Below are positions 14,508 to 21,274 of a DNA stretch of 64,000 nt, piece by piece. The stretch's first letter is position 1, and the number at the start of each line of letters is the position of its first letter. The stretch covers positions 1 through 64,000 of the forward strand of contig CAMJMQ010000010.1 in the NCBI GenBank assembly GCA_946407065.1, in the 5' to 3' direction. This DNA comes from an uncultured Clostridia bacterium (GTDB taxonomy: Bacteria > Bacillota > Clostridia > Oscillospirales > Acutalibacteraceae). The translations under genes were made by a program, and so were the position numbers. Under the pieces are notes generated by a model. The model had not been told where the DNA came from, ran no database searches, and worked only from the letters and a program-made list of their open reading frames with translations.

Positions 14508-16283
14508 TCAAACCTTGATCACAAGATTATTCAGTTTAAAGAAGGAATTATACTGAAAATCCTTTGCCAAGTTCGAAATCATTCTCAGTCCGATATGACG
14601 TGAAGGATCCTCATCGTTAAACAGCTCAAGCTGCTTGGCGGGATCAAACACGGGACAGTCATCCCGTACACGGAGCGTGTAATCGTCACCGTTTTTCACG
14701 ATACGCACATCGATACTATGCTCCTTGTCATCATTTGAAAACCCGTGTTTAATAATATTGCCCGCAAGCTCTTCTACACTCAGCGCCAAAAGGAACTTAC
14801 GTTTTTTGTCGCAACCGCGAGCTTCGCAAAAGTTCCATATATCCCGAGACAGCTCCACGACCTCATCCATGGAATATATGCTCTTTTCCATCTCCTCGTC
14901 CTCAGAAACACCGAAGTGATCCGGCATCAGAATGATCTTATCCATCAAGCTCTTGTCACGGATACGCAAACGATGAGAATAGACCTTGATCATGATCGCA
15001 TAGAATATCAGCATCAACACCTGCGTGACAGGGAAAGCATACCATACCGCGTCAGCTCCGATAAAGTTCGCCATGATCCCGGCGCTGAGCATCAGGAAGC
15101 CTGCCTCAAGAAGGAAGCCTGCTGTCAGCGACATCTTAGACTCACCTATTCCCTGCAAATAACACTGATAGATCACATTCAAGCCATAGAACGGCATACC
15201 TATCGCATAACAGCGTACTGCTGTGACAGACATCTGCATGGCTTCGGGATTATCTTTGATGAACAGCGCAGAGAACTGCGGCGCAAAGAAATACATCAGT
15301 AAAGCAAAACCGAGGGTAACCGCAAATGTCGCCTCAACCGATAGCAGTAAAAGCTTTTTCAATTTGGCTCGGTTTTCTTCTCCCATCAATACGCCTGCCA
15401 AAACCGCCACTGTCTCAGCCATACCCAGCGTGATCGGATTCAAAAAGGAGTCTGATTGGCGGTGAACGGAATACGCCGCGATCGCCGCCGTCGACGCGAT
15501 CACAGACAAAAGCATATTCATGAAGGTACTTCGAAGCGTATTGGAAACACGACAAACGCCTGACGGTAGACCGTGAACGATGATCCCGCCTGTTTCTTTC
15601 CATTTGAGATAACGTACCGAAAAACGAAGAAAAGTATTCTTCTTGAGAAAGTGCATCAACAAGACCAGAACACCGGCATAATAGCTGAGGCTGGTGGCAA
15701 GGCCCATCTCGAAGGTATCTCCGTGGAAAACGAATACCACAGCCAGATCCAGGACGACGTCCGTCACCGTCATGACAGCGGACGCGATCGCCGGCAGATG
15801 ACGGTCGTTGTCAATCGCCATATAACCGCTCAGCGTCTTCATGGCGTTCATCGCGGGCAGGCCGATCGCAATACCGATCAGATAGTCTGTCGCCTTCGGT
15901 AAAAGATTGGCAGCGTTACCTGACGCGCCGAGCACCTTCGCAATCGATGAAGCGAACGGCAGGATAATCGCCATCAGTACAGTCGCAAATCCGATCGAGA
16001 GAATACAGGACAGGGAGAATATCGATTGAGCATCCTTCTTTTTTCCCTCGCCGATCAGTCGAGTATAACGCGTTCTTGATCCCGTAGAAACGATTGCGCC
16101 AAACACAGAAAAGGTCGTTATCAGCGGATTAACGATACCGAACGCCGCGATCGATTCGGTTCCGAGAAACTGTCCGATCACAACGCCGTCGATCAATGAG
16201 CCGATTGATTGCGTAAGGGATGAAATAATAAACGCAATAAGCTGCGCAAAAAAAGTATTACGCAGTATAGAACTTCTTTTCAT
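14508..16283 (-). CDS. MATE efflux transporter fused to HATPase_c domain
   Basis: 591-aa fusion protein. Residues 1 to about 450 form a 12-helix MATE-type (MatE/NorM-like) transporter. The last 117 residues are a cytoplasmic GHKL ATPase of the RsbW/SpoIIAB anti-sigma kinase type, with an N-box EELAGNIIKH, a VRDDCPVFDP G1-like motif and a HIGLRM G2 loop. The start is taken at 16283, with AAAGGG about 10 nt upstream; ATGs at 16301 and 16328 are possible. The fusion implies export activity or signalling linked to an ATP-binding regulatory domain. The partner is unknown. Confidence 0.8.
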   Translation of the reverse strand: MKRSSILRNTFFAQLIAFIISSLTQSIGSLIDGVVIGQFLGTESIAAFGIVNPLITTFSVFGAIVSTGSRTRYTRLIGEGKKKDAQSIFSLSCILSIGFATVLMAIILPFASSIAKVLGASGNAANLLPKATDYLIGIAIGLPAMNAMKTLSGYMAIDNDRHLPAIASAVMTVTDVVLDLAVVFVFHGDTFEMGLATSLSYYAGVLVLLMHFLKKNTFLRFSVRYLKWKETGGIIVHGLPSGVCRVSNTLRSTFMNMLLSVIASTAAIAAYSVHRQSDSFLNPITLGMAETVAVLAGVLMGEENRAKLKKLLLLSVEATFAVTLGFALLMYFFAPQFSALFIKDNPEAMQMSVTAVRCYAIGMPFYGLNVIYQCYLQGIGESKMSLTAGFLLEAGFLMLSAGIMANFIGADAVWYAFPVTQVLMLIFYAIMIKVYSHRLRIRDKSLMDKIILMPDHFGVSEDEEMEKSIYSMDEVVELSRDIWNFCEARGCDKKRKFLLALSVEELAGNIIKHGFSNDDKEHSIDVRIVKNGDDYTLRVRDDCPVFDPAKQLELFNDEDPSRHIGLRMISNLAKDFQYNSFFKLNNLVIKV

Positions 16284-16341
16284 CGGTATTGACCCTTTCA
16301 TAAAAGATAAGTAGATTTCCCCAATCATACGACTGTATCAT

Positions 16342-18205: not shown

Positions 18206-19030
18206 CTACAAGGATTTGCTTGAAAACTGCTGAATCGCCATATCACGAAAAGCTGTATATTTCTTCTCAGGGATCGGCAGCTGAGTGCCATCAGACAGCG
18301 TCAGCTTAAAGCGCCGAATGTTTCGGATATAACCGGGATTGACCAGATAGCTCTGATGACACCTGAGGAACAGATGATGATATCTTTTTTCAAGCGCAGA
18401 TACACTTGTAAGCACCTCGACCGATTCTCCATCGACAGTATGCAGGATACTGTGTCTGCTCTCGTGAGCCGCTTCGATATATACAACGGTATCGGAAAGG
18501 ATAAAGTAATCCGAACGGTCAAGTCCGTGGAAGTGGATGCGATCACCGTTTTGTCTGAGTGAAACGCTGCTGTAATAGATCTGATGAAAGTTTTTCGGAT
18601 ATATCGTATCCTCCTCATGCATGGAATGAGGGTTGGAGATATGACAGAGCAGTATCCTTGGCTGTTTCTCTTTGCTGCCGTTCTCATCCTCAATCATACG
18701 CTCGCACCAAGTCAGGAGCAGGCGCTGATACAGGGTGATGTCATGGTGATCGGGATAGTGCGTAGTAACGTGATAACTCAACATCACATCGCAGGACGAA
18801 GGATGAGCGCTTGTGTGCATGACCTCGATATTTCCCAAGGAAAAGGACAGAGAGTGGTCCTCGGCGTTCCATACCTCGATCATCTTTTCCCTACCGTGCA
18901 GGAATTGTCCCTCGGCGGGACCGTACCACAGCGCGTCATCGTCCATGTGCATCAGGAACGGCATATAGTCGTTATCATAGTATTTCATAATCAGTTCAGC
19001 CGAGAGATCGGCAATCTGTTGTTGGTTCAT
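18206..19030 (-). CDS. NTF2/SnoaL-like domain fused to LytTR DNA-binding domain
   Basis: 274-aa cytoplasmic regulator. Residues about 1-130 look like an NTF2/SnoaL-type alpha+beta barrel (a helix with AELIMKYYDNDY, then DALWYGPAEGQFLHGREKMIEVW). Residues about 165-270 are a LytTR DNA-binding domain (VYIEAAHESRHSILHTVDGE, then LFLRCHQSYLVNPGYIRNIRR and LPIPEKKY). There is no receiver domain, so the N-terminal barrel may sense a small ligand. GGGAG lies 7 nt before the ATG. It is transcribed divergently from the ubiquitin-dockerin gene, with LytTR-like direct repeats between them, which suggests that it controls that gene. Confidence 0.8.
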   Translation of the reverse strand: MNQQQIADLSAELIMKYYDNDYMPFLMHMDDDALWYGPAEGQFLHGREKMIEVWNAEDHSLSFSLGNIEVMHTSAHPSSCDVMLSYHVTTHYPDHHDITLYQRLLLTWCERMIEDENGSKEKQPRILLCHISNPHSMHEEDTIYPKNFHQIYYSSVSLRQNGDRIHFHGLDRSDYFILSDTVVYIEAAHESRHSILHTVDGESVEVLTSVSALEKRYHHLFLRCHQSYLVNPGYIRNIRRFKLTLSDGTQLPIPEKKYTAFRDMAIQQFSSKSL

Positions 19031-19085: not shown

Positions 19086-19127
19086 CAAGTTCTTTTCGCA
19101 AAAATACAAGTCTTTTTCGGAAATCTA
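19086..19127 (+). promoter_or_regulatory. Direct repeats, candidate LytTR operator
   Basis: Two adjacent 21-bp units (19086-19106 and 19107-19127) match at 16 of 21 positions; both begin CAAGT and contain TTTTCG. A 21-bp period puts them on one DNA face, which is the arrangement bound by LytTR dimers. They end immediately before the -35 box at 19128. Confidence 0.6.
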
Positions 19128-19157
19128 TTGACGACGGAAATCGTGATATAGTACAAT
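19128..19157 (+). promoter_or_regulatory. Promoter of the ubiquitin-dockerin gene
   Basis: TTGACG (19128-19133) and TACAAT (19152-19157) with 18-nt spacing, 50 nt before the ATG. The suboptimal boxes fit a promoter that depends on an activator bound upstream. Confidence 0.55.
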
Positions 19158-19207: not shown

Positions 19208-21274
19208 ATGAAGAAGATCACCAAGAGAGTATTTGCTGTGCTTCTTTCCGTATGCGTGCTGTTCGGCGCTCTTTCTGTGAGCGCGACTGCGGCAAATGTT
19301 ACGCTTGCTCCGGCAGGGATGCAAATATTTGTCCGCACCCTGACCGGAAAGACAGTCACGCTTGATGTCGAATCCAATGACACAATCGAGAATATCAAGA
19401 GTAAGATACAGGAAAAAGAGGGGATCACACCGGATCAACAGAGGCTTATCTTTGCCGGTAAGCAGCTCGAGGACGGACGCACCCTCGCGGATTATAACAT
19501 TCAGAAGGAATCTACCCTGCACCTGGTACTGCGCCTCAGAGGCGAAGACAATGTTATCAGTTACAACCTTTGGGTAGGCGGCATACAGGTCACCTCCGAG
19601 AACTGCGATGATATTCCCTCCGTGATAAAGGGATCTGCTGTCTATGATCCCGAGACCTCCACACTGATGCTCGATAACGTCCAAGGCATTAACGGTGAAT
19701 ATTACGGTGCTTTGATACACTCGCGCCTCGACACCCTCAACATCCTTTTGTCAGGAGAAAACTATTTGAATGCAGATTATGAGCAGAACGGAGAACAAAT
19801 GCGCCACAGCACAGCCATCAGCTCGTTCGGAAACATGGTCTTCTCTGCCGAATCTGACGGAAGCCTGACCCTAGACGGCTTTAACGAGCCTGTATTCTCC
19901 TATAATAAAGCGATCACGATAAACAGCGGTCGTTACGACGCAAAAATACAAGGGAGCAGATTTGGCGAAACGATCAACACATTTGCTTTCGAATGTGCGG
20001 AAATGACCGTAAACGGCGGAGAGATCACCATTGACGCCGACTATTTGCAAGACGATATGACGATGTACGGCAGCGGCGTCTATGCAGATCGCTTTACCAT
20101 GTCCGGCGGTATGATGGCTGTGAATAACTATAAACAGGGAATCGTCGCTGAAGCTATCTCTGTCGCCGGCGGCAGGATCACCCTCAGCAACGGTAAAGAC
20201 ATAGGCTTATACGCTATGGGTGATGAAGGTATCCGCATCAGCGGAACGAAAACATCGGTTGATGTAACTTGCAGCAACATCGCCGTATCTTCCTATTCGG
20301 GATCGATCACCCTCTCTGATGACGTGGAGATCGTTGCTCCGAAGGGCGGCTCTGTCGGAACATGGTACGGCAGGCCTGCCATCGTCAATGAAGACGGCTC
20401 CGGCGCAACTGAGGTAAGGATCGCATCGCCCTACTGTACCGTCGCCATTGACTGCGGCGAGTACGGCGAGGATCTTTCCGTAGATGTACTGCGCGGCGCA
20501 AGGTTCTTTGACGCGCTCGATAACGCAGGAGTATTTGAGACACTCGGCGCAATGGAGACCGAGGACTATATCTTCCGCGAACTTGCGACAAAGCCGCTGG
20601 ATGAATTTGCCGACGCAGATGAATTAATTGAAGACGCAGGCGCTCTGCTCGATACGATCGTTACATCCGATATGACCGTATACGCCGGCTTCTACACGAA
20701 GATCAGGAAAGTCAACCTGACGCTCGATCAGCCCGTTATCGGCACAACCGTTACCTTGACAGGTGATATTCAGACGCCTGCTCCTGTGCTGATTCCAGAA
20801 AAGGATGCTCATTATTCGATCCACTCCGATCCCGAGTATCAATATTCTCAGTGGTACACAAAGGACAACGATAAATACACCACCTTCGAAGGGACTTTTG
20901 AGAAAGGTGAAACCTACTATGTTGATTGTCTGCTTGTTCCCGACTTTGGCTACTGGTTGGATGATAATACCGTCGTAAATGCAATCGGTGCAACGGTGGA
21001 GGAAGCATCCGGACGTATGTCTTTGTCCGTATCGTTATCTGCTCAGGCCGTCGCTCCCACCATTCTCGGTGACGCTGACGGTGACGGGATAGTTACGATT
21101 TTCGACGTTACTTGGATTCAGCGGCTTTTATTAGATATGAAAGTACCGGAAACCTTCAGCGAAACTGCCGCCGATGCGGACGCAGATGGTGAAATCTCAA
21201 TTATTGACGCAACATGGATTCAGCGTTGGCTCTCAGGAATGAAGATTCCCCATTCTATCGGGGAAGAAATATGA
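19208..21274 (+). CDS. Secreted ubiquitin-domain protein with C-terminal dockerin
   Basis: 688-aa exported protein. Residues 1-29 are a signal peptide ending SATAA. Residues 38-113 align without gaps to ubiquitin (19319-19546). Against the human sequence I count 11 differences: K6R, I13V, E16D, P19S, S20N, V26I, A28S, D32E, P37T, S57A, G76E. The I44 patch, K48 and K63 are kept; the C-terminal Gly-Gly is Gly-Glu and the chain continues, so classical conjugation through Gly76 is unlikely. Residues about 115-408 are repetitive beta structure resembling secreted carbohydrate-binding beta-helix proteins. About 410-610 is unassigned. Residues 619-679 are a two-repeat dockerin ([39 protein letters not shown]). 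GGAGG lies 7 nt before the ATG. Function unknown; possibly a displayed mimic of host or protist ubiquitin. Confidence 0.93.

Follow-up and report, generated by a model that had tools for sequence, protein, structure and literature searches.

A dockerin-bearing bacterial protein with a near-eukaryotic ubiquitin domain at a locus of probably exchangeable heads

We report a bacterial protein that carries a near-eukaryotic ubiquitin domain and a dockerin, and whose ubiquitin is likely, from comparison of related loci, one of several interchangeable heads. Its gene lies in what we call the window: the whole 64,000-nucleotide stretch analysed here, from an uncultured Clostridia bacterium of the Acutalibacteraceae (contig CAMJMQ010000010.1). 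The protein is no isolated oddity but belongs to a broad set, and among its close relatives ubiquitin is the best-conserved part. We propose that the window protein is an exchangeable binding head, which a locus under LytTR control would present on the cellulosome, a reading to which we give about an even chance of being right.

The gene runs from 19208 to 21274 on the forward strand as one intact open reading frame of 688 amino acids. It opens with a predicted signal peptide at about residues 1-29 (19208..19294), read from a KK start, a hydrophobic core and SATAA. The ubiquitin domain occupies residues 38-113 (19319..19546); it matches the PF00240 profile, has the beta-grasp fold of that family and is identical to human ubiquitin at 65 of 76 positions, with Glu replacing Gly76. 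L8, I44, H68, V70, K48 and K63 are all kept. Behind it, on the same strand, lie a strand-rich middle (residues 114-410, 19547..20437), the more variable part as judged by dN/dS of residues 113-510; a constant C-terminal region (residues 411-610, 20438..21037) that locus comparison found in proteins with other heads; and a dockerin type I region (residues 611-688, 21038..21271; Pfam Dockerin_1 at residues 620-674, 33.9 bits). A Pfam scan recognised no catalytic domain. In structural comparison of the predicted model, whose C-terminal part is too weak to use, matching rows spanned almost only residues 36-113. The first-pass annotation had described ubiquitin and dockerin in a single frame and the retention of L8, I44, V70, K48 and K63, and both descriptions hold for the window copy. 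It had also named misassembly of the contig at the ubiquitin gene as one thing that would undo its reading. Misassembly is ruled out, because at least 31 full-length relatives from other genomes, at 78-98% identity, stand among the 120 proteins listed.

The genome that holds the window (G000, 2.7 Mb; the window is on contig C10) has three cohesin matches over the cut-off, so that type I dockerin and cohesins occur together, as expected of a cellulosome protein. Matches to the window protein occur in 56 places of this genome, mostly dockerins only. A second ubiquitin gene (G000:C1:49920-53120) has two identical internal ubiquitin copies and a dockerin in a 1686-codon frame; by eye, we saw Flg_new-like stretches around both copies.

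Ubiquitin stands out from the rest of the protein by its conservation. We compared 24 orthologues with the window, namely L079, L088 and 22 of the 31 full-length proteins. Identity averaged 97.1% in ubiquitin versus 76-87% in the other parts: 83.1% for residues 113-410, 85.9% for 411-610 and 86.7% for the dockerin region and, over 23 rows, 80.9% for the signal peptide and 76.1% for the spacer. Simple Nei-Gojobori estimates on related pairs gave ubiquitin a dN/dS of 0.00-0.145 versus 0.26-0.44 for residues 113-510, ubiquitin being lower in nine of nine pairs with DNA. In the six pairs that could be computed, it was also lower, sometimes by little, than residues 510-610 (0.14-0.34) and the dockerin (0.21-0.60), again in every pair. 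This conservation does not single out the Ile44 face. Taking Ile44-patch and core residues from the ubiquitin literature, we found no significant drop in patch entropy relative to other surface positions (permutation P 0.74 for 37 K6R-type sequences, and 0.17 for 99 sequences, a set from which L129 was left out and in which some rows may be eukaryotic contamination). The test found no special conservation of the patch, and Lys48 is replaced in 5 of the 37 K6R-type sequences. In P0079, a full-length relative, a deletion has removed ubiquitin sequence around the central helix, which hints at decay or a relaxed need for ubiquitin; the domain can thus be dispensed with in places.

The tail needed for conjugation is missing. 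In the window, the domain ends Gly-Glu and 575 more residues follow, and Gly75-Gly76 is kept in none of 30 distinct dockerin-bearing sequences. By comparison, Gly-Gly is kept in 17 of 75 sequences without a dockerin, counted after removal of truncated copies of dockerin genes (Fisher p 0.003), and in 10 of the 62 that are left when rows lacking a leader are also removed (Fisher p 0.027). The early suggestion that this is a ubiquitin display and not a conjugable ubiquitin therefore stands.

Divergent from the ubiquitin gene lies a gene for a 274-amino-acid LytTR-domain regulator (18206..19030, reverse strand; Pfam LytTR, 57 bits), of which an AlphaFold model was too weak to use (mean pLDDT 41.6). 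Between the two genes, sequence comparison revealed two direct repeats on the forward strand, CAAGTTCTT (19086..19094) and, 21 bp after the first, CAAGTCTTT (19107..19115), which form a putative LytTR-type operator. Just downstream is a promoter-like element, TTGACG-N18-TACAAT (19128..19157, forward strand), read from the sequence and largely kept in a 14-row alignment, with TTGATG in L081. LytTR operators consist of 9-bp direct repeats about 21 bp apart. Since the spacing fits, we infer that the LytTR protein binds the pair at 19086-19115; the locus thus combines a LytTR protein with an upstream repeat pair, as a LytTR-controlled gene would. Homologues of the regulator (E<=1e-30) occur in 29 of 161 genomes of the genus, and we examined 26 of these 29 loci, leaving out G322, G335 and G412. 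The regulator gene adjoins a ubiquitin gene in eight loci, window included. A raw pattern count found CAAG[T/C]-N16-CAAGT upstream in 21 of the 26 loci; among the five without the pair, the upstream DNA of L246 is off the contig. A longer form of the repeat pattern has one exact match and one match with a mismatch in the window's own 2.7-Mb genome. Only the exact match is informative, because a reversed-pattern control gave six matches at up to one mismatch. Ubiquitin matches occur in 17 of the 29 genus genomes with the regulator versus 16 of the 132 without, counts that ignore kinship. Because those 16 genomes, which are drafts, have ubiquitin without a regulator match, much of the ubiquitin pattern is not tied to the LytTR locus.

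Comparing the 26 loci revealed that different proteins occupy the slot beside the regulator. A ubiquitin protein fills it in eight (the window, L077, L078, L079, L081, L083, L084 and L088; the L081 frame is short and L083 contains masked bases), and in L240 the slot protein contains a diverged ubiquitin in its interior. The constant region, residues 411-610, is matched in 14 of the 26, window included, at 42-100% identity. Eight slots (L236, L237, L243, L245, L247, L248, L249 and L252) combine a match to this region and the dockerin with a different front part; L248, L249 and L252 look like near-copies of each other. Among these front parts, Pfam recognised InlB-like repeats ahead of the constant region in L247 and L248, and in L236 and L245 it sees the dockerin only. 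The L237 protein has a middle resembling that of the window (38%) without ubiquitin, and a weak Pfam match to Cthe_2159 below the curated cut-off. L250 shares the dockerin only, and L239 encodes leucine-rich repeats with neither dockerin nor constant region. No recognised shared parts were found in the slot proteins of L238, L239, L240 and L251, the last cut by the contig end. No such relative was found in the slots of L238, L241, L242, L244, L246, L251 and L253, of which L246 has its upstream DNA off the contig and L251 is cut.

Two loci show where DNA similarity to the window stops and returns. The G438 locus (L236) has the same gene neighbourhood as the window, with a 98% identical regulator and four neighbours at 93-96%, and another head. 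By blastn, its DNA matches the window at 93% up to 19269 and resumes from 20432 at 84%, leaving 19270..20431 on the forward strand without a match. In G417 (L088), DNA similarity extends across ubiquitin as far as 19546, the final base of the domain, and picks up again at 20091. Because similarity breaks around it in both genomes, ubiquitin behaves as a module. A head-swapping locus of this kind would provide a natural experiment in which regulator and stalk are constant and heads differ. The adhesin role floated in the first-pass annotation has gained ground, since relatives hold other heads in the same slot.

With the own genome counted at each level, PF00240 matched 33 of 161 genomes of the genus, 16 of 300 of the family (15 of them above the cut-off) and 5 of 398 of the phylum. 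Four of the five phylum genomes were above the cut-off, and the match was strong only in the own genome and one other. The annotation had proposed searching other Ruminococcaceae for the architecture, and it recurs in the genus. Within the genus, architectures range from minimal proteins of leader, ubiquitin and dockerin only (L082, L087, L089, L090 and L091; five scanned with Pfam) to long proteins, some with diverged internal ubiquitins between Flg_new-like repeats. A search with a minimal ubiquitin-dockerin protein was uninformative on the dockerin family, its 120 listed proteins being swamped by polyubiquitin-like proteins. The nearest named records come from metagenomes and bear the titles Clostridiales, Oscillospiraceae, Ruminococcaceae or Ruminococcus; they include goat-gut bins and RUG (rumen) bins.

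Across 84,980 prokaryote species, 489 loci encode a ubiquitin relative, some of them eukaryotic contamination, in contrast with the 2017 description of Bacteroides fragilis as one of a few bacteria with a eukaryote-like ubiquitin (as worded in PMC5705921). We surveyed architectures in the best 80 of these 489 loci, all in named prokaryote records, calling leaders by a simple rule. A leader stood in front in 67, with ubiquitin directly behind it and a plausible cleavage site in 52 and a spacer between in 15 (L182 is doubtful). The 13 without a leader by this rule include a likely eukaryotic contaminant (L129), contig-end cuts (L143 and L168) and long N-terminal parts (L147 and L160). A Pfam scan of ten chosen proteins recognised an Autotransporter barrel behind ubiquitin in seven and a Por secretion tail in one. 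What the carriers share is that ubiquitin lies at the exposed N-terminus or close to it, in a protein whose tail is of a display or anchoring kind.

Several individual records deserve description. The barrel-bearing proteins (L132, L136, L152, L155, L156, L127 and L141) come from records titled Methylophilaceae, uncultured proteobacterium, Methylotenera, Sneathiella, Burkholderiales, Pseudorhodobacter and Hydrogenophilales. Sortase-like tails were seen by eye in L044 (LPQTG) and L035 (SPKTG). Two Dyella records, L134 (the isolate Dyella sp. OK004) and L179, consist of leader and ubiquitin and nothing more; one ends exactly in Gly-Gly and the other stops after LRL. L188-L190, from viral_contigs, have a leader, ubiquitin and a short tail with VPTMSEW and a hydrophobic stretch, which to us is reminiscent of IPTL-type sorting tails.

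The source of the ubiquitin is likely eukaryotic, judging from its residues. From the proteins that our searches listed we took 86 distinct eukaryote-type units, many of them metagenomic. The nearest matches the window at 68 of 76 positions; its carriers include P0121, P0122, P0124 and P0134. The substitutions K6R, V26I and D32E occur in 1, 1 and 2 of these 86 units versus 38, 48 and 46 of 103 bacterial sequences. Being rare in the former and common in the latter, they fit a ubiquitin that was acquired by transfer and then passed on between bacteria; the window's ubiquitin type also occurs in L125, a Verrucomicrobia record. In a phylogeny of 189 rows and 74 columns, 137 of 186 inner branches stay open, and two rows stand out by their long branches: L042 and P0079, the latter with its deletion and out of register. 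The free tree needs four changes of the K6R label; a tree with K6R held together has a higher likelihood, and one K6R clade is not rejected (p-AU 0.68). The eukaryotic ancestry suggested at first pass thus remains likely on the closeness of that nearest unit, and a 74-column tree cannot settle it.

Placing the window protein among known systems clarified what sets it apart. Eukaryotic ubiquitin and polyubiquitin differ from the window domain, which is predicted to be exported, lacks Gly76 and is fused at its C-terminus. Profile searches of the own genome for E2 (PF00179) and UCH (PF00443) gave no match, and control searches gave none either. Like the dockerin-bearing cellulosome proteins of Ruminococcus, the window protein has a signal peptide and a type I dockerin in a genome with cohesins; unlike them, it has no Pfam-recognised catalytic domain and its head is ubiquitin. 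Proteobacterial autotransporters with ubiquitin passengers likewise have ubiquitin where the mature chain of a surface-type protein is predicted to start, but they have an outer-membrane barrel in place of a dockerin and ubiquitin sequences of another type. The nearest functional precedent, BfUbb (ubb) of B. fragilis, shares with the window protein a patchy presence among relatives and a eukaryote-like ubiquitin that lacks Gly-Gly and stands behind a signal peptide. BfUbb ends after ubiquitin with a C-terminal cysteine and acts free, whereas the window protein has Glu at residue 76 and continues with middle and dockerin. Secreted bacterial ubiquitin is already known; our searches of the open-licence PMC literature turned up neither ubiquitin joined to a dockerin or carried by an autotransporter nor a head-swapping LytTR locus. 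Neither dockerin nor Ruminococcus occurs in the main text of PMC1949818, a survey of the beta-grasp fold.

If the window protein is an exchangeable binding head, it would be exported via its predicted signal peptide, its dockerin would plug into a cohesin, and the LytTR protein would switch the ubiquitin-gene promoter. From ubiquitin biochemistry, a ubiquitin with Glu for Gly76 would be neither conjugated nor readily cut off by deubiquitinases, and so should stay on its stalk as a ligand contacting something outside the cell. Because the minimal proteins consist of leader, ubiquitin and dockerin only, we surmise that ubiquitin itself is the payload. A binding role is favoured because heads differ at one regulated locus and other slot occupants have adhesin-like parts; the most likely use would be adhesive or competitive contact with other microbes or eukaryotic material in a fibre-rich gut. 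No particular partner can be named, since the Ile44 face is not specially conserved. More tentatively, and in our estimate somewhat short of probable, ubiquitin may be a recurring extracellular recognition token: eukaryote-derived, mostly without its conjugation tail, and set at the tip of bacterial surface proteins that end in a dockerin, an autotransporter barrel or a tail of the sortase type or another kind. It would be kept near-unchanged because an outside partner reads it, and would in this genus form one cassette of a regulator-controlled, head-swapping cellulosome locus. Should displayed ubiquitin have such a partner, bacteria would be using a eukaryotic signature molecule as a surface ligand.

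The main rival, which we hold to be unlikely, is an antibacterial head: competing bacteria would be inhibited by the ubiquitin, either when they touch it or once it is set free. BfUbb, secreted without Gly-Gly, is reported to inhibit sensitive B. fragilis strains as a 76-amino-acid synthetic protein (PMC5705921). Different heads in close relatives and small ubiquitin-like proteins with double-glycine leaders in one relative would also suit antagonism, but BfUbb is free and the window ubiquitin tethered, and slot occupants with leucine-rich repeats, InlB-like repeats or weakly carbohydrate-binding-like parts look more like adhesins than toxins. Polymorphic toxins place a variable module C-terminally, behind a constant N-terminal part, with an immunity gene adjacent. 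At the window locus the order is reversed, with the variable module at the N-terminus and the constant part at the C-terminus. The next gene after the ubiquitin gene encodes 145 amino acids on the opposite strand and has no Pfam match. No immunity gene was recognised at the locus, a point against antagonism that is softened by BfUbb itself, which seems from the account in PMC5705921 to need none.

Diverged ubiquitins between Flg_new-like repeats, the own genome's second gene included, look like building blocks, and a very stable ubiquitin fold could be a mere protease-resistant N-terminal end piece. We find this improbable: N-terminal copies have diverged less from ubiquitin (median dN/dS 0.085; 32 copies, 88 pairs) than internal ones (0.172, from only 4 pairs), and minimal ubiquitin-dockerin proteins have nothing to cap. 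We rate lower still the idea of a mimic aimed at eukaryotes, in which the domain would bind or block protist, fungal or host E1, E2, deubiquitinases or ubiquitin receptors. Its closeness to human ubiquitin, with the familiar surface residues kept in the window copy, and the rumen and goat-gut records of several carriers would fit, and BfUbb is reported to inhibit ubiquitination in vitro and to bind human E1 (PMC3352274). However, that report ascribes E1 binding to a C-terminal cysteine missing from the window domain, Gly76 is absent, and no route into the eukaryotic cytosol is evident. The first-pass proposal of a specific attack on E1-E2-E3 or deubiquitinases gained no support, given this lack of delivery, the replacements of Lys48 and the unexceptional Ile44 face. 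Being antibacterial and also an inhibitor of ubiquitination in vitro, BfUbb supports both antagonism and mimicry and decides neither.

Two further observations concern other genes. In L043 (G093:C22, 5497-7003), four tandem small open reading frames share a double-glycine leader, LSEEELELVIGG, of a kind seen in bacteriocins. Three match the ubiquitin profile, and these terminate in LRLRG, LRLMG or LRQMG. These frames adjoin a leucyl-tRNA-synthetase-like frame and lie near ribosomal-protein frames, all named by eye; a homologue search listed four proteins. Within the window, a single open reading frame of 606 amino acids (14508-16328) joins, by Pfam, a MatE transporter to a HATPase_c_2 kinase-like domain at its C-terminal end.
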